Of a DNA stretch of 56,249 nucleotides, positions 9,598 through 56,121 are shown in pieces (positions within the stretch are counted from its first letter, which is position 1; every line of letters begins with the position of its first letter). The DNA comes from Halohasta salina (GTDB lineage: Archaea > Halobacteriota > Halobacteria > Halobacteriales > Haloferacaceae): assembly GCF_024178165.1 (NCBI RefSeq), contig NZ_JAMZIE010000010.1, positions 1 to 56,249 of the forward strand, written 5' to 3'. The translations under genes and the position numbers were made by a program. The notes beneath the pieces were generated by a model that did not search any database, was not told where the DNA came from, and saw only the letters and a list, made by a program, of their open reading frames with translations.

Positions 9598-9640
9598 GTC
9601 CGGATTACGACGGGCTTAAGTCCGGATTACGACGGGCTTA
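9598..9640. repeat. Tandem 21-bp duplication at the DUF1102 gene end
   Basis: A 21-bp unit starting GTCCGGATTACG occurs at 9598-9618 and again, identical, at 9620-9640. The unit contains the TAA stop codon of the DUF1102 gene. This looks like a recent slippage duplication. It has no effect on the protein. Confidence 0.9.
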
Positions 9641-33426: not shown

Positions 33427-33570
33427 ATCTATCCATGGTAGTAACCCATCATAATACCAAGGGTAATTAACACTTCAACTGAGAAGATATACGCTGTATT
33501 GAGATGGCACTGTCTATTTGAGCAGAATTAGCGGATCTCAACTGTTTAAGAACTAGCAGTGCAGTGGTAT

Positions 33571-33600
33571 GACATCCTCCCCGGCGTGAACGCCCGGGTT
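33571..33600 (-). mobile_element. IS200/IS605 right end of the adjoining tnpB
   Basis: Read on the minus strand the end is CCGGGCG-TTCA-CGCCGGGGAGGATGTC, a stem-loop with the shared trailer GGAGGATGTCA (compare 23390-23400 and 5764-5771). It lies about 20 bp beyond the tnpB stop, on the correct side for the element's right end. Confidence 0.7.
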
Positions 33601-33621
33601 TCCTCACGCAGGGGGTATCGC

Positions 33622-34802
33622 TTACCGACCCACGGAGGCAACTTGCGGGTTCGTATGCTCCTCGTTGGGAACTGAGCGTGATGACTCTGACCAGTGATGG
33701 TCGTCCCACTTGAGGCATACAGGCCGTGCCATCGAGCGTGTTACCGTCGTCTGCCACCTCAGGAATGTCTCCAACGCGGAGAGGTCGACGTGCCCCTCAA
33801 ATCCGCATGGACACGTCAGCGTGTCTCTGTGACGTGTCGTGTCCTCTGTCGAACCGCAGTTCGGACACTCTTGACTCGTCCACGCCTCTGACCGTACTTC
33901 CACCGAGATACCGTATTCTTCGGCAGTACACGCCAATCGGCTCACGAACGCTCTGAATGCCCAGAAGTTGTGCGTCTTCGCATTCGTCTCCACCGACCAG
34001 TGCGTGTCAAGCACGTCCGTCAACGCCCCGACGTATACTATCGAAACGCCTTCGTCGTACAGGCGTTCGATGAGGTCACGGGCGAGTGCGTCTTGAGCGT
34101 GGTCACGTCACTTGGTTCGCAAGTCGTACAGGCGTCGGATACGGTGGCTACTGTACCGACCGTCCTCCAACAGCGATTGGAGGAGGGCAATTTCTCGCGT
34201 TGTCTCGTGGAATCGCTCGAACAGGTCGCGTCCTTCTTACAGGAGTTGCTGGCCAGTTGTGGTTGTGCAGGCGACGAGATTGTTCGCACCGATGTCCAGA
34301 GCGGCTTCTTCCGAAGCCAGTGGTTGTGCCAGCCGAGAATCATCAACGGTGACTGGCTGAAAGGCCCTGAACGATTGTGCTTGCTCGTCGTAGAACAACT
34401 CCAGCCGACCTTGCTTGTCGTACTCCTTCCAGCTGGGATCGCCTCGAACTTCGAGCCGGAGGCGTTCCGGTATCCAAGACTGTACTCGTCTTTCAGGTCT
34501 TTCCCGATGAGGATTTCAAGCCGAGAGTATTCACCCCACTCGACGGAGTACGACGTGTTTCGGATGTACGTGCGGAGTTCCCGTCCAGCTTCTGAGTTGC
34601 CCCAGAAGCCGGGTTTGCCGTTGGCTTCGCCCTTCTTCTTGAGGCTGAAGAACGACTTCCACGCTTCGCGGTTCTTGCGTTCGAGTTGCTGAACCGTGGA
34701 CGCACCGAGGACTCCGCCGTAGCGACCGCGATACTCAGTAATATCCCATACGTCGCCGTCTGGGTCGGGAACCTCACTCGCTGAACAGCGAACAAACCTC
34801 AC
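33622..34802 (-). pseudogene. tnpB: IS200/IS605 tnpB, decayed (frameshift and two stops)
   Basis: Translation from 34802 gives a normal TnpB N-terminal part ([38 protein letters not shown]). One G is then lost at GYR[E]RLRLEVRGD near 34470. The correct frame continues through LELFYDEQ and the catalytic [10 protein letters not shown], then meets TAA after TTGQQLL and TGA after DLRTK. The last part, from [10 protein letters not shown], is intact, with the zinc finger CPNCGSTE and [11 protein letters not shown]. The protein is dead. No tnpA is present. Confidence 0.9.
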
Positions 34803-34853: not shown

Positions 34854-36212
34854 TCACGATTGAACAGCACTCACGTTGGTCACTTGGCCCAGGAATAGAA
34901 CCGCATCAGTTGGTCTATCTCGGATACAAAACAGGAAGGGTCGGTCGACAGTTAGATCGAACGACCTCTCCGATGCGCTTTCGTTCATAACGACGCCGGT
35001 TGCCGCTGCGGCCTCCGTTCCCTCCTCGTCGACACGCACAAACGACTTGTGGAACACATCGTCGATGCCCGGGCCCCCACCACTCGTGACCATCCCCGCA
35101 AAGTCCGCACCAGGTCCGAAGGCAGACTCCATGCCCATCGTTTTGAGCGCCTGGCTGAGTTCGGTCTCGAACTCGTACTCAAATCTCGGCATTCGAAGAT
35201 CTCCACTGGCATCACCGAGTGCCTCGAAGATGCCGAACAGTGTCGCTCCCGATAGCTCTCCGTGGATCTCCTCGAACTCGCCTTCGTCGGGGACGATAAC
35301 AACCATCGATACCTCACCACCCACATATGGGAGTTCGATTGCTTGGACACCCGGGAGGTCGGCGTAGTCCGCCCGTAGGTTCTGGTGCATCATCGAGACC
35401 GTTGATTCTGATCCATCGAGGGCCCTGAAGGTCGATCCACTCGTCTCATCGGGATCGAACGGCAGTTGCCAGCCGGCCATGAAGTAGATCGCATTCGTCA
35501 ATACCAGTACCGTCTGGGCCGACAGGCCGTCTTTGGGAATCAGTTCCTCGATTCGACCCCCTGTCTCATCGTCGACCCACTGGTTGATACGCTCGCGTTC
35601 GGCCTCGGGATCACTCCCGAAGTCTGCCTCATTGAACCCTCCACCGTAGTGTTCGTCGACGAGATCGAGATACGCCTCGGCAAAGGAGTAATCACTCGCA
35701 CCCCACAGGGCATTTGCAACTTCGAGTTGGAAGGCGTCAGTCGTGTCTTTTCCAGGGTCACCCGGCACGTCGCTGGTCGCTCTCGCATCGAGTGCTGCTT
35801 GCAGCTCGTCAAAGGCAGGATGAGTCTCGTCACTAAGTGAGAAGCCAAGGGTTTCTCGCATTGCAGTCTCTGTTTGGCCACTGGCCCCACCATACGTCAT
35901 GGCCAGTGCCATCGAAATGCTGTAGGGTGAGACAAACACGTTGTCGACGTCGTCGGCTGCTGTGAGTTGCTCGTGGAGATCAAGTGCGAATCCCGCATTG
36001 CCAGCGACGAGTTCGGCCATACGTTCGTTCGTCGACGAGGGCGATCCCTCGGGCAGCGATCCCGTAGGCTCGTCGACTGGTGGCTCGTCGGTCGTATTCG
36101 GGGGGTTGTCGGTCGTGTTTCTTGGAGCACCCTCTGTACACCCAGCGAGCGCTGCAGCTGCAGCCATCCCGGTCGCAGCCAGTAGGCCACGGCGGTTCAA
36201 ATTCAGCTTCAT
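34854..36212 (-). CDS. Serpin, Tat-exported lipoprotein
   Basis: I chose the start MKLNLNRRGLL at 36212, because it puts the twin-arginine motif at the usual distance; 36245 is the alternative. A Tat signal with the lipobox LAGC is followed by an acidic Thr/Pro linker and a full serpin domain of about 370 residues (NVFVSPYSISMALAMTYGGASG, LVLTNAIYFMAGW, FHKSFVRVDEEGTEAAAATG). The hinge GTEAAAAT is rich in small residues, as in inhibitory serpins. The scissile bond is probably near MNESAS. It should protect the cell surface from serine proteases such as secreted halolysins. Confidence 0.93.
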   Translation of the reverse strand: MKLNLNRRGLLAATGMAAAAALAGCTEGAPRNTTDNPPNTTDEPPVDEPTGSLPEGSPSSTNERMAELVAGNAGFALDLHEQLTAADDVDNVFVSPYSISMALAMTYGGASGQTETAMRETLGFSLSDETHPAFDELQAALDARATSDVPGDPGKDTTDAFQLEVANALWGASDYSFAEAYLDLVDEHYGGGFNEADFGSDPEAERERINQWVDDETGGRIEELIPKDGLSAQTVLVLTNAIYFMAGWQLPFDPDETSGSTFRALDGSESTVSMMHQNLRADYADLPGVQAIELPYVGGEVSMVVIVPDEGEFEEIHGELSGATLFGIFEALGDASGDLRMPRFEYEFETELSQALKTMGMESAFGPGADFAGMVTSGGGPGIDDVFHKSFVRVDEEGTEAAAATGVVMNESASERSFDLTVDRPFLFCIRDRPTDAVLFLGQVTNVSAVQS

Positions 36213-36421
36213 CGAAACCTCGATACCCGAAGGGCGCTCATCCATACCCCCTCAGAAGCATGATATGTGTAAATATCTTGTAGTGTATGAAATAGTTCTT
36301 TGGTAGCTGTCCCACCGGACTGACTGGTCTTGTGGTCTTACAGTGGGATGGTGATGGTATGCACTTCAGCGAAAGATGATGAACGACCCTTTTATCAAAT
36401 ATGGATATGTTCTGCTATCTA

Positions 36422-39400
36422 ATGGTCGCTCTCAGTGAGTACGAGCATAATGATGTTGCGACTCTTTTTGTCAAACTGTGTGAGGTGACTGAGTCAAAGA
36501 TACAGCAGCGTGCATACGAATTAACGGTACGGACCCCAGATTCCGAACCAATACAACTCATTGTCTGGGAGGGCAGTCCAGCTGTCGACGTCGACTGGAT
36601 AACAGATGATTGGTATAAAATAGAGGATATCGTCATCAAGCAGTGGGAAACGACTACTGAGTTGGATGCGACAAACAAGACGACCGCCCAGCGAGTCGAA
36701 AACCCGATAGAAACCAAGGACGTTACTGAAAATGAAAACACAGCGGCCACTAAAGAGGCTGGTGCAGTAGACACAGAGCCATCACCACCACAATCAGTCG
36801 AACCAAACCGTATTTCTGAGCTCTATGAAGCCTTTCGAAGTCTCCGGACTGTATTGGACGCGATTATTGAATACCCAGAGAGTGCTGTTTCTCCGTCTGA
36901 GACGGATCAGCCACTGGTACAGTACCACACTGTGATTCAGGCCGTAATTGGGACCAGTAAGTATCTGCCAGCAGGAGTCGACGGGTTCGGTACTCAACAG
37001 GCCGAACGTGTCCCATTTCAAATGACTGAGTATCGAGAGGTGTACGGAACCGAATCGGCGGCCTATGAAACCCAATATCCGACCGGTCAAAATAGATCCT
37101 GGATAACCGACTACCAAACGATCGAGACAGCCCCGCTGGATGAAACAACCCAACAGGCACTCGAAGAACACGGCCTCGTCGAAGACGCCTCAGTGTTCGT
37201 ACGCCCGGTCGCTCCTGAAACACAGACCCCACTGCCGCTGTTACCGTGGAGTAGCGAGGAACTTGCTCAGGGTCTCTCGTTGCTATCACAATTCGAGACA
37301 CGACCATCGGTGCCGTGGGACAACGATGGAGTTGGTGATGGTGATACTCCAGAGAAATTCACCATACAAGAGGTATATGAACAGGTCTGTACGGTCGAAG
37401 AAATCGACACAGACCACCGTGTCACAATTGATAGAACAAACAGAGGCCAGCTGTCGAAGCCAACAAGCAAGGACATATGGACGACAGACGAGACCGCGCC
37501 AACAGATCGCTGTGGGTTTGTGTGGCCACCCGATGAGAGTGCCGACAAAACACAGCGGGCCAGCTGTTGTTACCGCGCGACCTGGCGCGATTTCGACCGG
37601 TGTATTTGGCATGCTGATACCGATATCGACAAACCAATCGAAGAGCTAACAGACGCCCGAGAATCGGAATCAAACCGGCTTCACAACCATTTGCCGAGAG
37701 AAATACTCGCCGGTGCAGTGCTTCGAGATACCCAACTCACCGATGAGATTCTAACTGGCGTCGATTTCAGCGGTGCGGATTTTGAAGGCTCAGAATTCAC
37801 CGACGTATATCTGAGCTATGCTGAGTTCACCGAAGCCAATGTATCCGGTGTTGATTTCACCGAAACGACTGTCTCACGAGTTAGCTTTAGAGATGCAGAT
37901 CTCACGAATGCGACGCTGGCTGGACTATCGTTGTACAATACAGACTTTAACGGAGCGACGCTAGCTGACACTGATTTCACCGATGCGAAAATTGAGCAGG
38001 CCATCGTTGCGAACGCCAATATCGAAGATGCAGTCGGAGTAGACACCAACGACCGACCTGGAGTAGCCAGTACCGACAACACAGAGGTCGATCCCAGTAC
38101 AACGCCAGCCGAAACAGCCACCGCAAGCGGTGACACAGACTCGAAAGCCGAAGACGAGACGTCGCTTGTGGTGACCACCGACACCTACATCGATCGAAAG
38201 AACATGAGTCGTGTCGTTAGACAGGAAGACTATCTGTCGGCTCTCGCTGAGATAGCCCAGAGTGCTATCGATACAGGATCAGATGCGGTGGTCCATCTGG
38301 GGAACCTCTTTTGGACGAAAGGATCACGAGACAGAGCAACCGATGGCCTCGAAGAACTCCTTCGAAAGCTTGCAGATCACGATATCGAGTTTCTCCTCGT
38401 CCAGGGGCCCAAAGATTCGGCCGCTGGATCAACTGTTCTCGGGACACTCGAAGAGGAGAATCTGCTGAGCATCTTAGATTCTGGCTGGCACAAAGTCGGT
38501 TCTGTTGGACTGCTTGTCCATGGTGTCGACGCAGATTCGATCAGCGATCAGACCACGACACCACCGAAAGATGCCACAGCCACCATCGCAGCCCTATATG
38601 ATGACATCACAACGGCGACAGAGTATTCGGAGGGCGCTGGGATTGAAACAGCCCTAGAGCCGGAGCTAGACCTTATTTTGACTGGCACACCGGATGCGAC
38701 GAACACGACAACTGAGTTGGGAACCCCACTGATGTCTCCAGGAATGCCCGAACGCCTAATCGGGCGATCGATCATTGATTCGACGCCCTCGACACCAGGG
38801 TTTCTCGAATGTGAGTTCCTCAACGGAGAACTCAACACCACAGTCCACGAGACAGACGCACGGCCTGCGACTGGATTCCGTATTGAGCTGTCGGCCGACG
38901 CAACGAAAGCCGATGTCATCGATAGGCTCCCTGCAGACCTGCCAACTGATGCGGCGGTGATGTTCGAAATTCGTGGCGAAAAGACCGCCGAGAGCCTCTC
39001 GAAACGCGAGATTGAAAATATTGTTACTCAGCGTGTTGAGATCGCTCGTGGTATCGACAAGCGAACTGAACGCAACTCCCATACAGATACGACAGCCGAT
39101 ACGGATACCCATACCACAGCGGACTCAAACATCGACAGCACTGACGCAAAATCCACCGAACTTACCGTAGAGTCGATCGCGGCGTCTTCATCAACACTAG
39201 AGGCCGAGTCTATCGAAACCAAAGTTAACAAGCTGCAATCCTACGGCGCTACGCGCAAAGAGGCGCTATCGTGTGTTTCGCAGTACGCTCATGATGAGGG
39301 CCTGTACTCGATTCCAGGAGTGGGTCTGGCAATTGGATATAAATTGGCAAGCCATGGGGTCACGAGACGAGATGAAATAGAACCCAAACACCTCGATATC

Positions 39401-40831
39401 GTCAAAGAGATCCCCGGAATCACCGACTACCATATAGAGCCGATCATTGAGGCAGTCGACGGTCTCGAAAAACCCGTTGATGCGACTACCCCAACCACTG
39501 ATACAGGCCCCGAGGTCGCTCGTAACCAACTATCAGAGTATTACGAGTCATTTCGAACGGTCCGAAAAGTGGTCTCGACAGTCATGCAGCTGGATGGTAC
39601 TGAAATCGTCCCCGACGACCTAACACATCCTGCAGTCCAATACTATGTGCTGCTCGATGCGTGTATCAGCTACGGCTTAACTGAGGCGAATTTTACGGGC
39701 TATGGGCTACAACAACGTGATCGCTTGCCATTCAGTATCAATGACTACCGCGATGCCTATCGAGAGGGAAGCAAGGGAATAATTGATTATCAGGAGATTC
39801 CAGTCGAAAGCTACAGCGAAGACACACAGTCATGGCTCGCGAACAATACATGGCTCACAGATACCGAGCAGTTCATGCGGCCAGTGGCCCCGGAGAGTGG
39901 CTACCCGCTCCCAGAGATGGTAACGACGAAACAAGAACTCGTGCGTGCTGTCGAACTCCTCAACGAGTTCCCCGCCTACCCTTCGATCCCGGACGAAGTA
40001 GATACCAGAGATAGAACGATTCCGATTAAGAGGCTGTATCAAGACCTATTTGAAGAAGTTCACGACGAGCACCTAATTGAACTCTCGCGTCTTTCGCCTC
40101 CTGGTCAGGCAAGTGGGGAACCGATTACCGGGCCGGTTGCCGATGCAACACCGACGTCTGAGGCTGATGCAGAATCGATGCTCCTCGACTACGGAAAGCT
40201 ATCTCACCTCTTCAGACGAGTCAAACCACCGAGTGAATCGCCGATTCAACGACAACTGCCCGTCTTTGGACTCGACTGGTACCAGCAGCGCTCACCATCT
40301 TTCAACCAACTCCAGAACCTTGCAAAGTACGATGATGACGATCCAATAACCCATTTCAAACCTCGCCTGCAGGATATGATTCATCGTCGATTCCTCCGAG
40401 ATCGGTGGAACTACGACTATATTACCGTCTTCCCCAGCCACGAGAAGGAAACATTGAGCTCAACGCTCGTCGACCTCGCCCAGGAGGCCGTTGTCGAAAC
40501 CTCAGTGGTATATACACCACTGCTCGAACGGACAGAGACGACCGGTCGGCAACGAGAAAAATCAGAAGCAGGCCGAAAGGAAGTGGCAATCAACCCCGAA
40601 GAAACGCTTCGTGTGCGGGCGTCGCTCGACGGAGAGACCATTGTCCTCTTAGACGACATCTGTACAACGGGGAGTTCTCTCTCGGCTGGTGCATACTTGC
40701 TTCGAGAATCAGGGGCCAGCCGTGTTGTCGGAGTCACACTCGGGTTTACGCCTGGTGGCCCGGTCGACGACGTGAGCGTAATCAAGAAGCCCGATGCATT
40801 TGCCTCCGAAATTATCGCAGGGGTTGAATGA
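36422..40831 (+). CDS. Giant multidomain protein with a ComF-like phosphoribosyltransferase, partner of DprA
   Basis: A TATA-like TTTATC (36391-36396) places the transcript start near the ATG at 36422, so I prefer this leaderless start to 36401 (1476 aa from there; numbering follows 36401). Order: possible OB-like strand set (10-85); module A (137-308); Cys cluster CGFVW...CCYRATW...CIWH (about 369-405); pentapeptide repeats (433-545); Mre11-like domain with lost metal motifs (587-870); HhH IPGVGLAIGYKLASHGV (967-1020); module A again (1040-1201); ComF-like PRTase with LLDDICTTGSSLSAG (1333-1470). The stop overlaps dprA by ATGA. DNA binding and a nucleotide-related activity are inferred. The complete architecture is unfamiliar to me. 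Confidence 0.8.
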   Translation: MVALSEYEHNDVATLFVKLCEVTESKIQQRAYELTVRTPDSEPIQLIVWEGSPAVDVDWITDDWYKIEDIVIKQWETTTELDATNKTTAQRVENPIETKDVTENENTAATKEAGAVDTEPSPPQSVEPNRISELYEAFRSLRTVLDAIIEYPESAVSPSETDQPLVQYHTVIQAVIGTSKYLPAGVDGFGTQQAERVPFQMTEYREVYGTESAAYETQYPTGQNRSWITDYQTIETAPLDETTQQALEEHGLVEDASVFVRPVAPETQTPLPLLPWSSEELAQGLSLLSQFETRPSVPWDNDGVGDGDTPEKFTIQEVYEQVCTVEEIDTDHRVTIDRTNRGQLSKPTSKDIWTTDETAPTDRCGFVWPPDESADKTQRASCCYRATWRDFDRCIWHADTDIDKPIEELTDARESESNRLHNHLPREILAGAVLRDTQLTDEILTGVDFSGADFEGSEFTDVYLSYAEFTEANVSGVDFTETTVSRVSFRDADLTNATLAGLSLYNTDFNGATLADTDFTDAKIEQAIVANANIEDAVGVDTNDRPGVASTDNTEVDPSTTPAETATASGDTDSKAEDETSLVVTTDTYIDRKNMSRVVRQEDYLSALAEIAQSAIDTGSDAVVHLGNLFWTKGSRDRATDGLEELLRKLADHDIEFLLVQGPKDSAAGSTVLGTLEEENLLSILDSGWHKVGSVGLLVHGVDADSISDQTTTPPKDATATIAALYDDITTATEYSEGAGIETALEPELDLILTGTPDATNTTTELGTPLMSPGMPERLIGRSIIDSTPSTPGFLECEFLNGELNTTVHETDARPATGFRIELSADATKADVIDRLPADLPTDAAVMFEIRGEKTAESLSKREIENIVTQRVEIARGIDKRTERNSHTDTTADTDTHTTADSNIDSTDAKSTELTVESIAASSSTLEAESIETKVNKLQSYGATRKEALSCVSQYAHDEGLYSIPGVGLAIGYKLASHGVTRRDEIEPKHLDIVKEIPGITDYHIEPIIEAVDGLEKPVDATTPTTDTGPEVARNQLSEYYESFRTVRKVVSTVMQLDGTEIVPDDLTHPAVQYYVLLDACISYGLTEANFTGYGLQQRDRLPFSINDYRDAYREGSKGIIDYQEIPVESYSEDTQSWLANNTWLTDTEQFMRPVAPESGYPLPEMVTTKQELVRAVELLNEFPAYPSIPDEVDTRDRTIPIKRLYQDLFEEVHDEHLIELSRLSPPGQASGEPITGPVADATPTSEADAESMLLDYGKLSHLFRRVKPPSESPIQRQLPVFGLDWYQQRSPSFNQLQNLAKYDDDDPITHFKPRLQDMIHRRFLRDRWNYDYITVFPSHEKETLSSTLVDLAQEAVVETSVVYTPLLERTETTGRQREKSEAGRKEVAINPEETLRVRASLDGETIVLLDDICTTGSSLSAGAYLLRESGASRVVGVTLGFTPGGPVDDVSVIKKPDAFASEIIAGVE

Positions 40832-41793
40832 TGGAGTTAGATCAACTCGCTGGCTTGGTCGCACTAACCGATATTGAGGGGATCGGTGACAGTCGTGCCT
40901 ATGAGTTGTTCCAAGCATTCGATTCGATATCTGAGCTGAGTTCCCAGCCAATGTCGGCATTTTCGGAATTTCATTATGTCGACTCTCAGACGCACGCCGA
41001 GTTGCAGACTCTGGATTCAAAACAGGGGACACATCTAGAAGCATTCGAAGCCTACCTGGACGATGGAATTGTACCGATTGGTATCGAGGACGGCCGGTAT
41101 CCAGAGGCACTTCGAAGCCAGCACGCACCGCTGGTGTTGTATGCAAGCGGTGAAACTGATCGGTTGACCGACTCGCTAGTGAGTGTCTCGGGATCACGTG
41201 AAACGAATAGTGTGGGCTGTAAGTGGATCAAAGAACTGTCTTCTGAGCTCGCGAGGGCTGGTAGAACGGTCGTCAGCGGTGGGGCACTGGGAGCAGACAC
41301 CGCAGCCCATCGGGGAGCTCTCGATGCCACAGGTGCGACCATCGTTGTCTTAGGAACCGGTCTAAATGTGGCCTATCCACCAGAGAACGCCGAGCTGTTC
41401 GCTGAAATCGTCGATGCTGGTGGTCTCGTGATCTCACATCGGCCGCCGCCAGCAGAACCGAATCGGCATGCGTTCATTGATAGAAACAAGACAATCTCTG
41501 CACTTAGTCCAGGACTCATTGTTGTTGCAACCGACGGCTCTGGCGGTACGCAAGCACAATACGAGATTGCACAAAAGCAGGGCCGTCACGTATTTGTCCC
41601 ACCACACGAGACCGATATCACTCCAGCCGAGGGTATCGACGAGATCCGAGCCGATTCCTCGACGAGTACAATTAGATCCAGTGGTGCACTCATAGATGAC
41701 CTTGAGACACTAGAGGCAGATCTGAGCAGTGACAACCCCAAAGAAGACGCCGATGTCGACAGTACTCAAACACAGTTTGGCGAGTGGAGCTGA
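40828..41793 (+). CDS. dprA: DprA/Smf-family DNA-processing protein
   Basis: The 321-residue protein has an N-terminal HhH-like segment (LTDIEGIGDSRAYELF) and then the Rossmann-like DprA domain: VSVSGSRETNSVG, VVSGGALGADTAAHRGAL, VVLGTGLNVAYPPEN, FIDRNKTISALSPGLIVVATDGSGGT. These are the DprA signature motifs. Bacterial DprA binds ssDNA and loads RecA during transformation. The C-terminal extension is acidic. The ATGA overlap with the ComF-like protein gene strongly implies a functional pair. DprA is not usual in haloarchaeal core genomes. Confidence 0.9.
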   Translation: MMELDQLAGLVALTDIEGIGDSRAYELFQAFDSISELSSQPMSAFSEFHYVDSQTHAELQTLDSKQGTHLEAFEAYLDDGIVPIGIEDGRYPEALRSQHAPLVLYASGETDRLTDSLVSVSGSRETNSVGCKWIKELSSELARAGRTVVSGGALGADTAAHRGALDATGATIVVLGTGLNVAYPPENAELFAEIVDAGGLVISHRPPPAEPNRHAFIDRNKTISALSPGLIVVATDGSGGTQAQYEIAQKQGRHVFVPPHETDITPAEGIDEIRADSSTSTIRSSGALIDDLETLEADLSSDNPKEDADVDSTQTQFGEWS

Positions 41794-41848: not shown

Positions 41849-44041
41849 CTAGAAGAAATCGTCAAGACCAGCGTTCACAAGATCCTCAGTATCTGTTTCG
41901 AGTTCGTTATCTAGCTCTCTGCTATCTGGGACTTCAAATGAAATCCGTGGCTCTGCCTGCTGAACTTCCTCCAACGTCTCTTTAATTTCCGCATGGATCG
42001 GTGCTGTCGGATTGGTCCCAGTCAGCGAACACCAAGCTCGCGTGCGAGTCAACGCGACAAATAATTGATTGCGCCGGTGTGCCTCTTCACCACGCCATTC
42101 TTCTTCGGTCGTTGAGTCGACACCGAGTACGTATACCGAAGCTGCTTCGTTGCCTTTGGCTCTATTAATTCCTGCAAGCGTAACCATACCCGGTTTTGAG
42201 AACACTTTGTTATTGCTTTCCCAGACGGGATTAACCTCAATATCGTCCTGACTTAGATAGTCGCCAAGCGTATCGAGAACATACCTTCTGCTCTTTTTTC
42301 TCTCGCGTTTCTGGCCCGAGAGTGGAATGACGAGAATCTGTTCTGGTTCAAGTCCTTCTTCGAAAATATCGACTCGAATCTGTTTAGCGACCCACTGGAG
42401 TTCGTCTTCTTTCGAAGCAAACGACCGATGTGTGAGAAGCGACTCCGGATCTAAGACCCCCTGGATTGGGTGTGGGGAATTATCGATTGGACGCGAGAGG
42501 ACTGCTTCACTACCGATTTTTCGGAAATCACCTTCGATTTCGTACCCTAGATTGTTCCAACCATCTTGTCGGGTGATCGTCTGGACCGGACCCTCATCAC
42601 GTTTTAATCCCATTCCAAGCACATGCGCAGTCATGATGAGTGATCGTGGTGCTCGGTAGGACTTTCGCATTATGTGCGTCTTTTGTGGTCCGTTCTTGTA
42701 TGTCCCGCTGAGATCCATAATCGGTTCGCCAGCTTCATCGGTTCCGAACACGTTTTTCGGACTTGGTGCTTCCAAGCTCCTGAGGTCTTGGGCCTCGTCA
42801 TATGCCCAAATAAGACGATTGGCGTCGGTCAGTGCCTCACGACACATATTCAGAAACTCTGGACCAAAATCCTGTGCCTCGTCAATTAGAATTGCATCCC
42901 AGAGCTCTGGGATGTCATCTGCAAGCCGTACTTCAGCGGCAACCGCTTCTTGTTTATCCTCTGCATCAGGGAATGCTTTCTCTGCTTCGGGGTAATTTTT
43001 GTAGTTTACTCCCTCTGTTGCGTTTGCTATTCGATAGTAGATTCCGTCACCAGTTTTGTGACCTCCCCACCCATGTATTATGTCAATATCGAAGTTTGAT
43101 TCGCTAAGAGGTTGTCCGGTGAACCGTTGATAGAACCGCTCGACGAGTTCTGTGATGTGATCATAGAGGCTTTTCGTACTGAAAGTGAGCGCAATACGGG
43201 GATACTCGGAGTCGAAAGTCTCCCAATCACCGGGGTCTGCAAGCATTCTAGCAGCCTTCATCGCAATGAGAACTGTTTTTCCAGAGCCTGCAATGCCACG
43301 TATTTGCTGCGGGCCGGGTGGTATTTTCAAGCCAATCTTTTGTTGTTCCTCATCAAGTCCCCGAATTCCAGTTGTTACCTTTTCGTAGTACTCAGATCGA
43401 GTTTGAGGATTATCGGTAGGCCGACCATGTGTTCCGCTGATCGCCTGACCACAACTGAGAACATCTCTAGCAACGTCGTATTCCGACTCTGTGAGCGATC
43501 CGAATTCGGGCAGTGAATCTAATCGATTTCTGAGTGTTACTGGGCCCATCTCATCACCAGTGATGATTCGAGGGGCACTTGGTCCGTTGAATCCTCTTTC
43601 TTCCCACTCCGATCGGTCAATATTTGGAAGTACAACGATCGGGTTCATTGCGATACGGCATTGGCCCTTGTCTGAACGCAGTTGTTGTTCTCGCTGAAAG
43701 TATGATTGGAGATGGAACCCCTGATTGCGTGCTTGTTCAAGTGGCGTGGCTGTTCTCTGAGTCATGTCTTTCAGATGCCACGTATCACCCTTGATTTGCT
43801 CAATGTGGTCAATTGTATATCCCTTACATTCGAGAATTACCAAGCCAATCTGTTGATGAAGAAGTACAAAATCAGGCTTTTGATCGAATCGGTTTCCTCC
43901 CTTATTCACAATCGGATACTGGTGATACAAGACACCACGTTCGTCTGTGTCGAAACAGCGTTTTAATCGGTTCCAGACCGTGAGTTCTGCTTCACCGCCA
44001 GGATCAGATTCGGAAACAGACGATGCTGAAATATATTCCAT
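41849..44041 (-). CDS. NERD nuclease-domain / superfamily 1 helicase
   Basis: The 730-residue protein starts with a NERD domain: GGEAELTVWNRL (Glu17/Glu19), KPDFVLL (Asp57) and VILECKGY (Glu71 and Lys73). A UvrD-like helicase follows: Walker A GIAGSGKTVLIAMK, motif II AILIDEAQDFG, SYRAPRSL, and the C-terminal ALTRTRAWCSLTG. NERD-helicases are widespread in mobile and defence regions and are presumed to degrade or unwind DNA. It converges on dprA, leaving a 55-bp gap. Confidence 0.9.
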   Translation of the reverse strand: MEYISASSVSESDPGGEAELTVWNRLKRCFDTDERGVLYHQYPIVNKGGNRFDQKPDFVLLHQQIGLVILECKGYTIDHIEQIKGDTWHLKDMTQRTATPLEQARNQGFHLQSYFQREQQLRSDKGQCRIAMNPIVVLPNIDRSEWEERGFNGPSAPRIITGDEMGPVTLRNRLDSLPEFGSLTESEYDVARDVLSCGQAISGTHGRPTDNPQTRSEYYEKVTTGIRGLDEEQQKIGLKIPPGPQQIRGIAGSGKTVLIAMKAARMLADPGDWETFDSEYPRIALTFSTKSLYDHITELVERFYQRFTGQPLSESNFDIDIIHGWGGHKTGDGIYYRIANATEGVNYKNYPEAEKAFPDAEDKQEAVAAEVRLADDIPELWDAILIDEAQDFGPEFLNMCREALTDANRLIWAYDEAQDLRSLEAPSPKNVFGTDEAGEPIMDLSGTYKNGPQKTHIMRKSYRAPRSLIMTAHVLGMGLKRDEGPVQTITRQDGWNNLGYEIEGDFRKIGSEAVLSRPIDNSPHPIQGVLDPESLLTHRSFASKEDELQWVAKQIRVDIFEEGLEPEQILVIPLSGQKRERKKSRRYVLDTLGDYLSQDDIEVNPVWESNNKVFSKPGMVTLAGINRAKGNEAASVYVLGVDSTTEEEWRGEEAHRRNQLFVALTRTRAWCSLTGTNPTAPIHAEIKETLEEVQQAEPRISFEVPDSRELDNELETDTEDLVNAGLDDFF

Positions 44042-44186: not shown

Positions 44187-44615
44187 ATGGATGAAATTAC
44201 CGAAAATCTTTACATATCAAAAGCACTCGCACTCCTCGAACTACCAGCAGATCACGAATTTGATGAGGTTGTCTCTCTTTCCTCTCGAGATCATCTGGGA
44301 ATCGAATCACCAAAGCCGACGACGACAGGCGACCAATTCGTGTTTCCTGATGGGCCTCACGACTACGAGATATTCGAGGCTGCAGTCGACTATACGATTG
44401 AGTGCTTAGATCGAGGTGACAAAACTTTGGTCCACTGCCAAGCTGGAGTCTCACGGAGTGCAGGGGTCTGCACCGCTGCAATCGCTGTCAGACAGGGTCT
44501 CGATGCTGACCAAGCGCGTGAAAAAATCAAAGCCTCCCGGCCAGAGATTAATCCAACATCTGAAATCTGGAAAAGTACAGTCCGGTATGTCGACGAGCAT
44601 ACACGCCTTTGTTAG
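44187..44615 (+). CDS. Dual-specificity protein phosphatase
   Basis: The 142-residue protein has the DSP signature VHCQAGVSRSAG, with nucleophile Cys84 and phosphate-binding Arg90. The N-terminal ITENLYISKALAL and C-terminal RPEINPTSEIW match the compact DSP fold. It removes phosphate from Ser/Thr/Tyr. The nearby kinase/PP2C triad makes phosphoproteins of this island natural substrates, but this is inference. Confidence 0.88.
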   Translation: MDEITENLYISKALALLELPADHEFDEVVSLSSRDHLGIESPKPTTTGDQFVFPDGPHDYEIFEAAVDYTIECLDRGDKTLVHCQAGVSRSAGVCTAAIAVRQGLDADQAREKIKASRPEINPTSEIWKSTVRYVDEHTRLC

Positions 44616-45017
44616 CTAGAGAGGGACCATACCAGATCAGTCTGATACAGTAATACTCGATAGGTGGTATCACTGGCTTCGATACGACTACTCAACGGAA
44701 GGCGATCGAAACGATAGTGATAGCGTTATGGTCTTAATTATTGAATAGACATCTCGTATCCAGAAGTCAGAAAGAAGCTGTTAGAACGTATCGTCGATAA
44801 GAGAAGTGTGCTTTTTCAACGGCAGTCACAGGCTGAGGCTTCGAGGGCTGGCTTCTTGCATTATGATAAATATGCAACAGTTTGAGTCAGAGGGCACTGT
44901 TATCTCAACTGATGGGAGTGGTACACGATTTTAGCCAACGAGGATACTACTTCGAAACGTGATAATAGTCCGTTTTATAAAGAAATTTATACAGTCTCGA
45001 ATATCTACTATAATAAG
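44616..45017. other. AT-rich gap, promoter region of the vWA operon
   Basis: No convincing gene is seen. A short open frame around 44771-44884 (KKLLERIVDKRSVLFQRQ) may be a fragment of something lost. The last 45 bp contain TTTTATAAAGAAATTTATA (about 44973-44991), a strong TATA region for the vWA gene at 45018. Confidence 0.5.
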
Positions 45018-45737
45018 ATGTCACAAGATAGTGGACTGGATCCGAGTATCGATCCTGCCCTTGAGCGTACTGCGACTGTTCTCGTCGTCGATACGTCTGG
45101 CTCAATGGGTGAGGAAGTGTCTCCTGCGGCGGATGAAGAGCCTCGACCACGGATTGAACAAATAAATGAGGGGATGTCGTTCTTCAAAGAAGAAATAATT
45201 GAAATGGAAGAGGTCAAGAGAGAAATTGACGTCTCTGTTGTGACCTTTGGCGGTGGGGTGACCGTAGAGCAAGAATTTACACCAATCATTGACTGGGAAC
45301 CACCAGTGTTGAGTGAATCTGGTCGCACACCGATGGGAGGAGCCATAGAGAAGGCACTCGATCTCGTCGATGATCGGAAAGAAGCCTACAAACAGGAAGG
45401 TATTGCATACAAGCGGCCGTTCGTTTGGGTGCTAACCGACGGGAAGCCTACAGATATGAAACCCAACTCTGAGAAATGGGAAAATATCCATGATCGGATT
45501 CAGACGGGAGAGAATGGGAAACACTTTGCACTATTCATTATGGCTGTCGGACAAGGGGCAAAAGAAGCAATCAGTCCACTTCATCCAGAGCGCACCCTTG
45601 CTCTTGAGGATGGGAAATTTAGGGAGTACTTTGAGTTTCTCTCATCGAGTGTCGAACAGGTATCGTCGACAGAAGATGACGATGACATAGACCTCTCCGA
45701 AGAGGCTGGCGAGTTCGAAGAGATATTCCAGTTGTAA
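45018..45737 (+). CDS. vWA-domain protein, TerY-like
   Basis: The 239-residue protein is one vWA domain with an intact MIDAS: DTSGSMG (Asp25, Ser27, Ser29), then GRTPMGGA (Thr) and VLTDGKPTD (Asp). Its tail is strongly acidic. TerY-type vWA proteins are known to co-occur with a PP2C-like phosphatase and a protein kinase as a signalling triad linked to tellurite/stress and proposed defence systems. The next two genes supply both. Confidence 0.88.
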   Translation: MSQDSGLDPSIDPALERTATVLVVDTSGSMGEEVSPAADEEPRPRIEQINEGMSFFKEEIIEMEEVKREIDVSVVTFGGGVTVEQEFTPIIDWEPPVLSESGRTPMGGAIEKALDLVDDRKEAYKQEGIAYKRPFVWVLTDGKPTDMKPNSEKWENIHDRIQTGENGKHFALFIMAVGQGAKEAISPLHPERTLALEDGKFREYFEFLSSSVEQVSSTEDDDDIDLSEEAGEFEEIFQL

Positions 45738-45748
45738 CCATACTACCT

Positions 45749-46783
45749 ATGGAAGTGTCACCATCGAAATTCAACGAACCAGAGGTGATAGGTGAGAGCG
45801 TCCAAGGGCCAGGACATAAAACAAATAATATCGAATGCCAAGATAACTGGTCTGCAAAAGCCGGAGAAAATTATGTTGTAGCCGCTGTCGGAGATGGTCT
45901 TGGGACTGCATCACGGTCTGCTGAAGGATCACAACTCGCAACAAAAATAGCGGTCAAAAAATTAACACAGTGGTTGCAATCGGACGAGGTAGATGTGGAA
46001 AATGTCTCGCAGTCGGAAGCCAAAGATGCATTTCAGAGTGCAATCATCCACGCTCGAAAGCGTATTGAGACCGTTGCCGCCGAGTTCGATAATGACTTGA
46101 ACCAATACCACACCACCTTATCGGTAGTCTGTAATACCCCTAACTGGTATGCAGCGATTGCGATTGGTGATAGTGGAGTTGTCGGTATTACTGTAGACGA
46201 TACATATCGACGTTTAGTAGATCGCGAAGACTCTAGCAGCTCAAGTGCAACAGTTCCACTAACTGGATCGCCAACCTTAGTGAAAGAGAAAAATCGTTTT
46301 GATTTCGATCAGACCGGGATGCAAACAGTCGTCTTATTCAGTGATGGATTAGATCGCTTCGCCTGGAGTCTCGAAAACAAATCTGAGCCCCGTCAAGAGT
46401 TCTTCGGACGATTACAAGATTTCATAACCCACATTGACTCGTTGTCAAGCGAGAAAGCTAAATCAGACTTCCGCGAGTTCGTTGACAGTGATGAGTTCCA
46501 TAATTACTCTAGCGATGATAAGACGCTTGTCGTAGCTCACCTACCACAGGCAACGTCTAGAACTACGAGTTCACCGTCGGGAAGAAAAAAATTCTCGGAT
46601 AGAGAGTTCAAAAATGCCGTTGAGTCAGCTCAACAACCATCAATAACTGAGGTCGGAGAGATTGTAGGCTGTTCCCACACTACTGCAGCGGATCGTCTCC
46701 GCCAATTAAAACAGGACGGGGTGCTTTCGAGCCGTGAAGCAGGAAATGAAATCCTTTGGAAAGTCGATCAGTCTGGAGAATAA
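45749..46783 (+). CDS. PP2C-like phosphatase fused to a winged helix
   Basis: The 344-residue protein has a PP2C core (QDNWSAKAGENYVVAAVGDGLG, AAIAIGDSGVVGI, VVLFSDGLDRFAW, SSDDKTLVVAHL) with the metal-binding Asp residues in DGLG and SDGLD. Residues about 275-344 form an additional winged helix (SITEVGEIVGCSHTTAADRLRQLKQDGVLSSREAG). A phosphatase tied directly to a DNA-binding domain may regulate the operon in response to phosphorylation. It begins 11 bp after the vWA stop. Confidence 0.85.
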   Translation: MEVSPSKFNEPEVIGESVQGPGHKTNNIECQDNWSAKAGENYVVAAVGDGLGTASRSAEGSQLATKIAVKKLTQWLQSDEVDVENVSQSEAKDAFQSAIIHARKRIETVAAEFDNDLNQYHTTLSVVCNTPNWYAAIAIGDSGVVGITVDDTYRRLVDREDSSSSSATVPLTGSPTLVKEKNRFDFDQTGMQTVVLFSDGLDRFAWSLENKSEPRQEFFGRLQDFITHIDSLSSEKAKSDFREFVDSDEFHNYSSDDKTLVVAHLPQATSRTTSSPSGRKKFSDREFKNAVESAQQPSITEVGEIVGCSHTTAADRLRQLKQDGVLSSREAGNEILWKVDQSGE

Positions 46784-46857
46784 GGAGCTATGGCCTCTAT
46801 GCTACTTTTCATGATTAGCGAACAGTTTACACTTGAGTGTGTGGTTGAAAATAATAA

Positions 46858-49086
46858 ATGACTGTCTCGCAAAAGAATCTCACAAAAGTCGCTCAACAGA
46901 TAATTGAAAAATACAACGTCAGTAAGTATACGTCTGTTGAGCAAATTCGCGAGATGCTAGATCAACTGATCAACGAGTACCAAGTACCTCCGGAGGAGGC
47001 GAAAAAATCCGTCATTAGAAAATTAAAGGATAGTGGCATGACTGAGGACACAAACTCTTCTGTGAGCGATAGTAACGGGCAGTCAGTTCCCGATAGTTCA
47101 GATTTCGAAAAGGAGTCAGTGACTACTGGTGAGGGAAGAGCACTCACAATCGGGAGCGAACTCGGGGGAGGTAAAGAAGGGACGGTCTATGCCGTACAGA
47201 GCGAAAGCGACCTGGCGGTGAAGGTGTTCAAACAAGACCGAATTGAGAATAGCCGGATGAAAAAGAAGATCGAAGTGATGCTGAATAATAGGCCCGTAGA
47301 CAAGCGTCGAATTGGCCAAAACGATCTGATATTTGCTTGGCCAGTTGACACAGTATATTACGACGACATATTTATAGGTTATTTGATGCCGCGTGTAGAG
47401 ACTGATAATCGCAGTAATATACGTACCTACATCAGAAAACAATTATCTGCGTCTGGTGATCTCAAGCGAAGAATAAAACTCTCTTACAATCTCGCATCAG
47501 CAGTATATTTTGTTCATAGATGTGGGTATGCAGTGGGTGATTTCAATTATGAAAATATTTTTGTCAGTGATGATAAAGATCGAGTCACGTTGATAGATTG
47601 TGACTCGTATTCGATTGCAGACGGAAATCAGAGTCAGTTCCACGGGTCGACAATGTATGAAGAGACTGTCCCGCCCGAAAAACGTGAAACGAGTTCTATG
47701 CAAGGAGCTCAGATGGCAGACTCGTTCAATCTGGCAGTCTGGTTGTTCCGAATTCTCCACCCCACAGAGCATGCATATTTGAATCCATTCCAGGCCAAGG
47801 GAAGTCTTGCAACATCTGGCAAATTGGTCGAGATGATGCGCGAAAATCCATTTCCCTACTGGAATCCTAAAGCAGACTTGATTGAGCCGACGAGCGGGCA
47901 ATCGACATATACCTCCCTTCCGATCGGATTGCGTGTCCTTTTTGAATCGGCTTTCCTCGGAGGTAAGTACCATCCGTATAAACGGCCCTCGCCTGGTGTA
48001 TGGCGGGATGTTCTTATAAACTACTATCGCTGGAATGACAAGAGTGGTCTGGAGAAAGGATCCCGAAAAAGAATTGATCAAGACGAGTTATCCACAAATT
48101 ATACACAGTGTGGCCCAAGCATTGACTTCTCACAGGTCAACAAACTCGGCTGTAACGAATCTTTCGACGAACCATATGAGTCAGCAGAGATTGTCGGGAA
48201 AATAAAATCAGTAACTCCATTGCATGAATTCAACCGTGATGAGGCTAATGAGGAAAATGACCGGGAGCAAACTGGGTTCGTGTCAAATGTTGTATTGGAA
48301 AATGCAACCGGTCGAAGACGTCTAACTTTCTGGGATAAGCAGGCAGTCGTTGCAGCAAGGTCATTACATCCGGGATTGGTGATCCATGCTACAGGTGAGA
48401 TACGGCCTGAAGATTACATAGACGAATTTGACCAACAATTGTATGTCGATGAGTTTAGCGCAATGCCTACCTTCGATAACTGTCCATCGATAGAAGAATT
48501 ATCCGTTGGTGATGATTCGATACATGCCCGTGGTCAGATCGTTGGTATGCGATCGATCAAGCGATTCGACAACAACGGATCAAGCAATGCAGTCTTGAAT
48601 TTAGTAATAGCAGACGGATCTGGTCATGCCCACGTCACTTTGTGGGGTAAGATGGCCGAGCGGTTGAAATTCGTCCCATCTGGGTTAACGCTCGAAATAA
48701 TCGATGGGTATGTGAAACAAAAAGATGGTCAGACCACTATCGAGATCTCCGAAGACTGTATCCCTCCGGTGGTGTCTGATCTAAGATTGGATAATACACT
48801 CAAACCAACCCCGATTTGTACAATCGAAGACGGTGACGTTGTCGACGTTGGAGGTGTAATAACAGATGTCCAGCAGATCAATGAGTATAGTGGGAATAAA
48901 AAACGCGAACTCAAAATCCAAGATGAGACTGATTCAATCACTGTCAACATATGGGGTGATGAACTCGCCACAGAAGAATATAATAAGGGCGACAAAATCT
49001 TGGTAACCGGTGTAGAGGGTAATTCGGATTACGGAGATACAAAATTAAATACGCAAGTTAGCTCTGTGGTAGTGTTTTCAGAGTAG
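46858..49086 (+). CDS. TerY-P-type protein kinase fused to OB-folds
   Basis: The 742-residue protein has a helical N-terminus and then a kinase domain (about 95-390): GGGKEGTVY loop (about 101-109), AVKVFK (Lys near 122), catalytic GDFNYENIF (about 228) and LIDCDSY in place of DFG (about 247-253). The last motif is typical of kinases in TerY-P triads. Three RPA-like OB-folds follow (about 443-545, 552-650 and 658-742; VNIWGDEL and VTLWGKMAERL strands). This suggests single-stranded DNA or RNA sensing. The stop codon lies in the terminal repeat of the following IS66 element, so the native C-terminus may be cut. Confidence 0.85.
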   Translation: MTVSQKNLTKVAQQIIEKYNVSKYTSVEQIREMLDQLINEYQVPPEEAKKSVIRKLKDSGMTEDTNSSVSDSNGQSVPDSSDFEKESVTTGEGRALTIGSELGGGKEGTVYAVQSESDLAVKVFKQDRIENSRMKKKIEVMLNNRPVDKRRIGQNDLIFAWPVDTVYYDDIFIGYLMPRVETDNRSNIRTYIRKQLSASGDLKRRIKLSYNLASAVYFVHRCGYAVGDFNYENIFVSDDKDRVTLIDCDSYSIADGNQSQFHGSTMYEETVPPEKRETSSMQGAQMADSFNLAVWLFRILHPTEHAYLNPFQAKGSLATSGKLVEMMRENPFPYWNPKADLIEPTSGQSTYTSLPIGLRVLFESAFLGGKYHPYKRPSPGVWRDVLINYYRWNDKSGLEKGSRKRIDQDELSTNYTQCGPSIDFSQVNKLGCNESFDEPYESAEIVGKIKSVTPLHEFNRDEANEENDREQTGFVSNVVLENATGRRRLTFWDKQAVVAARSLHPGLVIHATGEIRPEDYIDEFDQQLYVDEFSAMPTFDNCPSIEELSVGDDSIHARGQIVGMRSIKRFDNNGSSNAVLNLVIADGSGHAHVTLWGKMAERLKFVPSGLTLEIIDGYVKQKDGQTTIEISEDCIPPVVSDLRLDNTLKPTPICTIEDGDVVDVGGVITDVQQINEYSGNKKRELKIQDETDSITVNIWGDELATEEYNKGDKILVTGVEGNSDYGDTKLNTQVSSVVVFSE

Positions 49087-50661
49087 TTGGATAGCAAGAC
49101 CAAGATACACCGCTCAGTGATGCCTCTCGTCCTTACCGAAGTTCTCTCCCACCCAGAATTGACTGGAGCTGTTCTGGTGGATCGAGGCCTCGCCGTTTCC
49201 ACGTCGCCAACATCGTTGTTATTGTCTCGTGAATCTGGACCCCTTCTACCGAACGGAGGGTCCGAAACATCTTCCGAAGGACTACTTGCTCGCGCAGAGC
49301 CCGCTCTGCGCGATTATTCGTCGAGTCAACGTCTGGCTCAGTCACGAACGTAAGCCAGTGACCCAACCCGTTGCTGATCTTCTTGATCAGCTTCTGAACC
49401 TCTCGAACCTCGTAATCTTCCCTAATTAGGCCCTCTAAGTGCAAGGACGCTTCCGCCCGCTTCTGCTCGCGGGCGGAAGCGGACGGCTCTCCTTCGACGA
49501 ACGCCGTTAGATCGTCGTGGAGTGCGTGTAACTCTTCAGATATTCGCTCTGCTTCCTCGTACCGTTCAGCGACGTACTCAGCCTCCCGTAACAGGTGCGC
49601 CCAGCACCGCTGAAGTCTCGTGTGATAACTCGAATACGCTGACCAGCCGTCACAACTGAGCGTCGAGTCCTCGGCGAATTCCTCGCCGAGGACGTCTTCT
49701 AAGACCTGACTTCCACGGCTCTCATCAACCCAGAACAGCACTTCCTCATCAGTGACAAACGTCCACGCCCAGTGTTGTTCTCCATCAACCGGAAAGCCTG
49801 TTTTATCACAGTAGACGACCTCACTCTCCTGAATCTTGTCTTTGACATCCTCGTAAGCGGGTCGCAACCGGTCTGCGACCCGCTTGGTCAAGTTGTAGAT
49901 CGTCCGGTGAGAGATCGGAAGGTCGAGCTCCCAGTCAAACAGCTCGGCCTGTTTCCGGTTTGGCAGTCGTTGATGGAACCGACCGAGAGCGGTTTGGGCC
50001 ATGATGTTTGGCCCAAACCGCCCCTTTTCGGGACAGTCAGGATGCTCAGCAACAACCTCGTTTCCACAGGAACAGTGGTGTTTGCCGAGTTTGTACTCGG
50101 TAACAGTGGTTGGAACGGGAAGCGGTACGTCGATAATAGTCCGTGAAACGTAGCTATCAGGGCTAGAAAGGATTTGCTCACAGTCTGGACAGAATCCCTG
50201 ATCGACGAGGATCGTCTCTTCTGGTTCAGGTGCTGTTCGAGTTGTTCCCTCGTGACCTTCGCTGCGTCCAGGCGATGAGTCGCTGGCGGCGTCAGAGTCG
50301 CCGCCAGCGTCGTCTTCATTAGGTTCTTCGTCTTCGTCCTCGGTTTGGCCGTCATCGCCTGGTGAGTTAGCTGCACCACCCTGTCTACTGGGTGGTGTGT
50401 TTGGATTTTCGTACTGCTTGAGGCGAGCCTCAAGCTGTTCGATCTCTTGTTGTTGTGCGGTAATCTGGCGTCGCAGAAGCCGGTTCTCAAGCTTTTTGAC
50501 TACGAGCTGCTGACGAAGTAGAGAACTGTCATCGGTGCGGATCACAGAATCTGTCGATTCCGTTGATCCGCGACTCCCTAGCGACACAGTAGTTCAGCAC
50601 TGGTGAACGATCTATGAGACTGCTACGAAATCGTCTCGGCATGGAACTGCTATCCAACTAC
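49083..50661 (-). mobile_element. IS66-family insertion sequence
   Basis: Perfect 14-bp inverted repeats GTAGTTGGATAGCA (49083-49096) and its complement (50648-50661) bound a 1579-bp element with one transposase. No 8-bp target duplication is evident in the flanks (TTTTCAGA and GAGATTTC). The left repeat supplies the stop codon of the OB-fold kinase. Confidence 0.85.
49133..50587 (-). CDS. IS66-family transposase (TnpC-like)
   Basis: The 484-residue protein has a leucine-zipper start (LVVKKLENRLLRRQITAQQQEIEQLEARL, in parts) and an acidic linker. A zinc-binding region CPDCEQIL/HHCSCGNE and the IS66 core follow: YCDKTGFPVDGEQHWAWTFVTD (first Asp), LSCDGWSAY (second Asp), CWAHLLREAEY, and STNNRAERALREQVVLRK (Glu). 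It appears intact, so the element may be active. The accessory orfs tnpA/tnpB of bacterial IS66 are absent, as usual for haloarchaeal members. Confidence 0.9.
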   Translation of the reverse strand: MSLGSRGSTESTDSVIRTDDSSLLRQQLVVKKLENRLLRRQITAQQQEIEQLEARLKQYENPNTPPSRQGGAANSPGDDGQTEDEDEEPNEDDAGGDSDAASDSSPGRSEGHEGTTRTAPEPEETILVDQGFCPDCEQILSSPDSYVSRTIIDVPLPVPTTVTEYKLGKHHCSCGNEVVAEHPDCPEKGRFGPNIMAQTALGRFHQRLPNRKQAELFDWELDLPISHRTIYNLTKRVADRLRPAYEDVKDKIQESEVVYCDKTGFPVDGEQHWAWTFVTDEEVLFWVDESRGSQVLEDVLGEEFAEDSTLSCDGWSAYSSYHTRLQRCWAHLLREAEYVAERYEEAERISEELHALHDDLTAFVEGEPSASAREQKRAEASLHLEGLIREDYEVREVQKLIKKISNGLGHWLTFVTEPDVDSTNNRAERALREQVVLRKMFRTLRSVEGVQIHETITTMLATWKRRGLDPPEQLQSILGGRELR

Positions 50662-55116: not shown

Positions 55117-56121
55117 GCTCTTGTGGCGGAGATTGTTGGTGAGTCATAGTGCAGCGTCGAGAATGGTTTTCAGAGCTTCTTTTCCTGGTTTTCGATAGAC
55201 GCGACGACGAAGCTGAAACGCTCTGAGGTACGGCGTGAGTTTGTCCTTGGAGACACCTCGATGGGGCGAGAGCCAGGATCGCACCAGCGATCCGTGGCTC
55301 TCGCAGGTGTTCACGTGAACGTCTCCATCAACGTACTCGCCGTCACCATGGACGACGTATTCACGAGTGAATGCGTCGTCCTCCTCAAGCGGTTCATACG
55401 CCCGAAAGCCGTCAGTATAGACAGTCAGCGACTCCTGTTGGCTGTCAGCCAGCAGGAGTCGAATCGTCGATTCATTGGCGGCTTTCGCTGGGATCACGTA
55501 CCGCTCACCGGTGCTGCGATCAGCCAAAATAAACACAGGTGGCTTGTCCTTTTCATATGTTCCACGTCCACGTGTAGAGAGGCCACGCGAGCGCGACGGC
55601 TGGTCGCGCTCGCGGCCTTTGAGTCCTCCTGCTTTCACGTACAGCTCGTCGATCTCAACGGGTCCTTCGAGATGTGGCAGAGGCGCGTCCAGCGCCCGCA
55701 GGAAGCGCTGGACGCGCCGATAGATTGTCTTGTAGGAAACGTCGATCTCCACGTCAAGCTGTCTGAGACTCGTGTTGAAGCGGATATAGGTGTAGACAGC
55801 GAGGAACCACTTCTTCAGAGCAATCGATGAGTGGTCAAAAACGGTGGCTGTCTGATCGTTGAACGTCCGGTCGCAATTTTTACACAGGTATCGCTGAAAC
55901 ACTCGATAGCTGCCGTACCGAATCACGGATTCGGCACGGCAGCGTGGGCAATAGACGCCGTCACGCCAGCGAACCTGTCGCAGCAGGTTTGCGGCTCGAC
56001 GCTCCGAGACAAACGTCTTGATTGGGAACATCGTTTGTCGGGTGACACGAACGTGTCACCCTTGCCCACTGTGACTTCCAGCTACTGCTGAGAACTGACC
56101 AACAATCCTCTACCCAAGAGC
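55117..56121 (-). mobile_element. IS1595-family insertion sequence
   Basis: The imperfect inverted ends begin GCTCTTG (55117) and finish CAAGAGC (56121). They continue inward with a shared GATTGTTGGT. Both sides are flanked by GAAC (55113-55116 and 56122-56125), a possible short target duplication. The element is 1005 bp with one transposase. It interrupts an older ISH3-like transposase. Confidence 0.75.
55144..56031 (-). CDS. IS1595-family transposase
   Basis: The 295-residue protein has the IS1595 zinc ribbon (CPRCRAES and CKNCDRTF) and then FNDQTATVFDHSSIALKKWF and the helix-turn-helix DVEIDVSYKTIYRRVQRF. The catalytic core has VEIDELYVKAGG (Asp), LTVYTDGFRAY (Asp) and HVNTCESHGSLVRSWLSPHRGVSK. 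It appears intact, so the element may be active. Confidence 0.9.
   Translation of the reverse strand: MFPIKTFVSERRAANLLRQVRWRDGVYCPRCRAESVIRYGSYRVFQRYLCKNCDRTFNDQTATVFDHSSIALKKWFLAVYTYIRFNTSLRQLDVEIDVSYKTIYRRVQRFLRALDAPLPHLEGPVEIDELYVKAGGLKGRERDQPSRSRGLSTRGRGTYEKDKPPVFILADRSTGERYVIPAKAANESTIRLLLADSQQESLTVYTDGFRAYEPLEEDDAFTREYVVHGDGEYVDGDVHVNTCESHGSLVRSWLSPHRGVSKDKLTPYLRAFQLRRRVYRKPGKEALKTILDAAL

Follow-up and report, generated by a model that had tools for sequence, protein, structure and literature searches.

A gene pair of the haloarchaeon Halohasta salina, in which a giant protein ending in a phosphoribosyltransferase (PRTase) domain is encoded directly ahead of a DprA-like partner, resembles the ShosTA/PsyrTA toxin-antitoxin defence systems in an enlarged, modular archaeal form. 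The pair lies in the 56,249-nucleotide stretch of DNA analyzed here (the window). New in these results is a haloarchaeal clade of PRTase toxins, comprising eight loci in the PRTase tree, with swappable N-terminal modules; a literature search covering few preprints returned no title on a haloarchaeal PRTase/DprA variant, and an earlier description is possible. The reading that we favor, and consider likely, is that the pair is an antiviral module of a PRTase toxin and a DprA antitoxin, and that the N-terminal array of the giant protein is a non-cutting DNA reader controlling release of the PRTase.

Results

A giant toxin-like gene overlaps dprA

The toxin-like gene occupies positions 36401..40831 of the forward strand as an open reading frame of 1476 aa. 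The gene for the DprA-like partner (ShosA/PsyrA-like; 40828..41793, forward strand, 321 aa) begins within its last codons, the stop of the toxin gene and the start of dprA sharing the 4-nt ATGA. The original prediction, made from the sequence alone, had described a gene for a protein of about 1470 residues overlapping dprA in this way, and both reading frames and the overlap are present as claimed. Translation may truly start at the ATG at 36422 rather than at 36401, because the N-terminus of a homologue from Natronorubrum thiooxidans aligns nearby and a TATA-like TTTTATC at 36390 lies ~30 nt upstream of that ATG. The predicted identity of the partner as DprA holds firmly (Pfam E = 2.4e-51). 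Among PADLOC profiles it matches ShosA (1e-49) and PsyrA (5e-31), and its DprA profile matches both a solved DprA (7e-42) and the solved ShosA 9vzo (4e-39).

The effector domain has a ShosT/ComF-like PRTase fold

The phosphoribosyltransferase effector domain (40208..40828, forward strand; residues 1270-1476) retains an intact PRPP loop, DDICTTGSS at residues 1418-1426, with D, D, T, G and S invariant. It scores 25.6 bits in the Pfam scan, just under the cut-off of 26.3, and is matched by the PADLOC profiles for ShosT (2e-13) and PsyrT (3e-7). The structure predictions are based on few sequences; that of the PRTase reaches a pLDDT of ~75-95 across most of the domain. Foldseek with this model places ShosT at ranks 1-3, the top match being 8zvb, and VIA Z scores are tied for ComF (14.6) and ShosT (13.8), with PurF at 9.9. 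Identity to ShosT is only ~15% across the fold. The ComF-like PRTase proposed earlier for the C-terminus is therefore recovered, with a predicted fold as close to ShosT as to ComF. The placement of ShosT in the PRTase tree rests on a single phage ShosT-like row (L234), which forms a long, poorly filled branch.

Several properties of characterized relatives bear on how the pair may act. Toxicity of RqlH requires its PRTase, RqlI co-precipitates only with the PRTase present and likely binds it, and the toxin gene precedes the antitoxin gene, frequently with overlap (PMC4670107). A DprA and PRTase pair shields E. coli from T7 and lambda (PMC9122126), and ShosT reportedly disturbs purine nucleotide pools and ShosA reportedly binds DNA (reviewed in PMC12593503). 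The window pair resembles ShosTA in its PRTase fold with a PRPP loop and in an adjacent DprA-like partner that matches solved ShosA by profile and sequence. It differs in being archaeal, in the size of the toxin (1476 aa with DNA-related N-terminal modules versus ~430 aa), and in gene order, which is toxin then antitoxin in the window and the reverse in the P2-like phage checked. With PsyrTA/RqlHI it shares a large toxin with a C-terminal PRTase and a downstream, overlapping DprA partner; its front end, however, combines other modules with an Mre11 fold devoid of metal ligands and has no RecQ-like helicase. Membership in PsyrTA was rejected, as a Pfam scan of the window protein found no helicase family.

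The N-terminal array includes an Mre11 fold that has lost its metal-ligand motifs

The most N-terminal domain (36422..36715, forward strand; residues ~8-105) was overlooked in the earlier sequence-only reading. It is common to the N. thiooxidans homologue (42% identity), haloarchaeal long Argonautes and Mre11-like phosphoesterases. The matches to the N-termini of the Argonautes, which carry Piwi (8.7e-13), and to stand-alone Mre11-like phosphoesterases with intact motifs are weak in both cases (E ~1e-5 to 1e-6). In one stand-alone protein (L232:2445-3467) this N-terminal domain is fused to a phosphoesterase of the Mre11 type whose motifs are intact, and the giant may have obtained its front end from a protein of that kind. 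The strand order of the predicted domain follows an OB-like beta pattern; an OB fold is at most a candidate, as Pfam gave no match and an hhalign comparison with a kinase OB domain was not significant.

A duplicated module, proposed earlier, is present as copy A (36797..37330, forward strand; residues ~133-310) and copy B (39491..40066, forward strand; residues ~1031-1222), which are 33% identical across 173 aa (E=1e-31) and are both predicted at low pLDDT. Viral relatives of module A/B or of the N-terminal third were searched for and none were found. Both the Cys cluster and the pentapeptide repeats named in the original prediction are also there, within 37496..38050 (forward strand; residues ~366-550; Pfam PF00805/PF13599): the former comprises C371, C389, C390, C401 and H404, and the latter span residues 451-526 (Pfam 1.4e-16). 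The helix-hairpin-helix (HhH) claim fares less evenly. The region at 39263..39466 (forward strand; residues ~955-1022) matches PF14520 above the Pfam cut-off in four homologues (L053, L055, L154 and L033) but only weakly in the window protein itself, at 17.9 versus 27 bits.

The Mre11-like domain (38153..39100, forward strand; residues ~585-900) is real as a fold. Foldseek finds P. furiosus Mre11 at 5.6e-12, and VIA Z scores against Mre11 structures reach 18.8 over residues ~580-890, with both the nuclease and the capping fold matched. However, alignment with the genome's own Mre11 shows that DTH, GDLF and GNHE have become DTY, GNLF and GPKD, and in aligned relatives the motifs are degenerate with other combinations lost. 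The likeness to Mre11/SbcD thus extends to nuclease and capping fold (Z ~18), and the difference is that the window domain lacks the inspected metal-ligand motifs and sits inside a PRTase protein. We therefore rejected an active Mre11 nuclease on the basis of these substitutions; the fold in the giant protein probably cannot cut DNA.

A clade of PRTase toxins with exchangeable front ends

In the PRTase tree the window protein falls within an 8-row clade (support 100/99), nested in an 11-row clade whose members are all DprA-linked (100/96), itself nested in a 30-row clade (97/87) with 24 of the 30 rows DprA-linked. Architectures within the giant clade vary widely. The toxins of Halovenus rubra (646 aa) and Haloprofundus marisrubri (807 aa) are both HhH-B-PRT. 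N. thiooxidans has two, of 1207 aa (Mre11-HhH-B-PRT) and 1303 aa (N-domain-CysPPR-Mre11-HhH-B-PRT), and the remaining members are those of genome G421 (1209 aa; Mre11-HhH-B-PRT), genome G159 (902 aa; CysPPR-HhH-B-PRT) and Halalkalirubrum salinum, whose toxin is split across contigs, the upstream part carrying three HhH stretches, a zinc finger and module B. Several of these toxins have no Mre11 domain, and module B occurs in all with upstream sequence available. The sister group consists of three small pairs from Haloferax and Halorubrum, with toxins of 308-328 aa, in which PRTase and DprA are kept and the N-terminal array is absent. Two module copies are found only in the window protein among the giant clade and these small pairs.

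Gene organization is conserved. In all giant and small pairs of this PRTase clade the toxin gene comes first and the two genes overlap or abut; at L055 the dprA start was set at 9624, where MKATD begins, which again gives an ATGA overlap. At two giant-clade loci, similar phosphoesterase-like ORFs of ~300 aa (TIVSISDIHGYL) lie directly behind dprA (L055:10610-11518 and L052:3099-4019).

The modules recur in other haloarchaeal proteins

Module A/B is also found beside HNH-repeat and HhH domains, in PbeA-like helicase proteins, and in a 2771-aa protein (L041:3649-11964) with matches to PDC-S37 (1388 bits) and to Hhe. The last is a PDC-S37 defence helicase-nuclease with module A/B and HNH repeats. 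Dozens of haloarchaeal proteins contain the Cys-pentapeptide unit, among them one (L050:6713-9037) in which it is fused to an ion-channel domain.

DprA is rare in the sampled haloarchaea and always follows a PRTase gene

A PRTase profile and the Pfam DprA model were searched over 391 genomes of the class, one per species and covering part of the class; a control search was positive in 10 of 14 named genomes. Seventeen DprA-family genes were found in 14 genomes, leaving 377 of the 391 without DprA, and each of the 17 immediately follows a PRTase gene. Sixteen adjoin a PRTase recovered by the profile search; for the seventeenth (G323) a 246-aa PRTase ORF ends 2 nt upstream. The search for homologues without dprA had the opposite outcome to the one that would have told against the proposed pairing, as dprA is present beside every close homologue. 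RqlH-type helicase-PRTase fusions without detected DprA occur in five genomes (L158, L159, L160, L161 and L162), and RqlH without a DprA partner has also been described in bacteria (PMC4670107). Two genomes of the same genus as the window (G046 and G047) have neither a PRTase-profile match nor DprA. This sparse distribution of DprA is as expected for defence genes. A small PRTase and DprA pair is also present on a viral contig (L183:7367-8869).

Genes around the pair

A NERD-UvrD helicase gene (41849..44041, reverse strand) lies downstream of dprA in convergent orientation. Since it stands beside only one other giant pair, ~1 kb beyond one of the N. thiooxidans pairs, and also occurs alone on haloarchaeal plasmids without a PRTase-search match, we treat it as an accessory neighbor and rejected it as a core part. 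Upstream and divergent from the giant gene is a serpin gene (34854-36245, reverse strand; Pfam 1.8e-103). Further downstream, next to the toxin pair, consecutive genes at 44187-49086 form a TerY-P-like phosphorylation set: they encode a dual-specificity phosphatase, a VWA protein with a weak TerY match, a PP2C whose tail is wHTH-like, and a kinase that carries OB domains. Mobile-element ORFs surround the region (33467-34802, 49133-50587 and 55144-56031), comprising an IS605-type TnpB remnant and two ORFs that look transposase-like (by eye, one IS66-like and the other IS1595/ISXO2-like), and GC in this region is below that of most of the window's first 24 kb.

Discussion

The profile and fold comparisons place the pair with the ShosTA/PsyrTA/RqlHI kind and support a DNA-sensing immune system, one of two functions initially suggested, as the best reading. 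The architecture had been called unrecognized; that judgement holds for the N-terminal part, whereas the core of PRTase and DprA belongs to a known kind. By analogy with characterized relatives, the PRTase would be toxic, DprA would neutralize it, and the pair would act against viruses by abortive infection. At rest, DprA supplied by coupled translation would bind and restrain the PRTase. DNA ends and branched or single-stranded intermediates of viral replication would serve as the trigger, recognized by the Mre11 fold, HhH and other modules of the N-terminal array and perhaps also by DprA, and the array would decide when the PRTase is released. The freed PRTase would then consume or rewire PRPP or nucleotides, upsetting the nucleotide pool so that growth stops before virus is released. 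The domain types of the array point to DNA sensing, and these modules could serve other purposes.

DprA could itself be the sensor, binding viral single-stranded DNA and activating or freeing the PRTase, with the N-terminal array merely docking the complex on DNA. Rousset et al. put forward such a role for the E. coli pair (PMC9122126), DNA binding by ShosA is reported in the review cited above (PMC12593503), and the small haloarchaeal pairs manage with PRTase and DprA and no array. Yet giant-clade toxins repeatedly bear differing sets of DNA-related modules, which suggests that the modules matter for specificity, and we regard sensing by DprA in place of the array as rather unlikely. Less probable still is a housekeeping role in DNA repair, with DNA edited or tagged by the PRTase and a recombinase loaded by DprA. 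The Mre11 fold, HhH, DprA and the neighboring helicase would suit it, and a DNA-modification model was offered by the RqlHI authors (PMC4670107); against this stand the patchy presence of the pair, including its absence from same-genus genomes, the two copies in some genomes and the lost Mre11 motifs.

DprA is a bacterial competence protein, and a DNA-uptake or processing device was the other function suggested at the outset. The window proteins share the PRTase and DprA folds with ComF/ComFC and DprA of competence, ComF is as close by fold as ShosT, and DprA functions in competence in bacteria. However, the window PRTase is fused into a giant protein, and we know of no Com protein resembling such a mosaic, with its Mre11 fold stripped of metal ligands. 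Haloarchaeal DprA, moreover, is sparse and without a visible competence link across the 391 genomes, and both genes are absent from same-genus genomes. That DprA is rare and in every sampled case paired with a PRTase is strong evidence against competence and favors defence of the PRTase-toxin/DprA-antitoxin kind; on this distribution we rejected the competence reading, which we consider highly improbable. The least plausible account, a nuclease effector system in which the Mre11 domain cuts invading DNA under regulation by PRTase and DprA, has a genuine Mre11 fold with capping domain in its favor but is contradicted by the replacement or degeneration of DTH, GDLF and GNHE in the window protein and its relatives and by giant-clade toxins that do without the domain.

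Returning to the toxin-antitoxin module with a DNA-reading front end, the recurrence of A/B and the Cys-pentapeptide unit elsewhere raises the tentative idea that haloarchaea plug interchangeable recognition modules onto varied effectors, the giant protein being a DNA-pattern receptor built on a non-cutting Mre11 fold. In this wider and less certain reading, the modules would include the Argonaute-type N-domain, A/B, Cys-pentapeptide, HhH and Mre11 folds without metal ligands, and the effectors the PRTase toxin, PDC-S37-type helicase-nuclease, Argonaute and ion channel.

These results add a giant, modular haloarchaeal form to a recently characterized kind of anti-phage toxin-antitoxin system, and they offer a reason for the presence of DprA in some haloarchaea, namely the PRTase partner found with every sampled copy. 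The Mre11 fold that lacks metal ligands and is joined to a PRTase makes a candidate DNA-structure receptor, and modules A/B, the Argonaute-type N-domain and the Cys-pentapeptide unit provide handles for finding more archaeal defence effectors.
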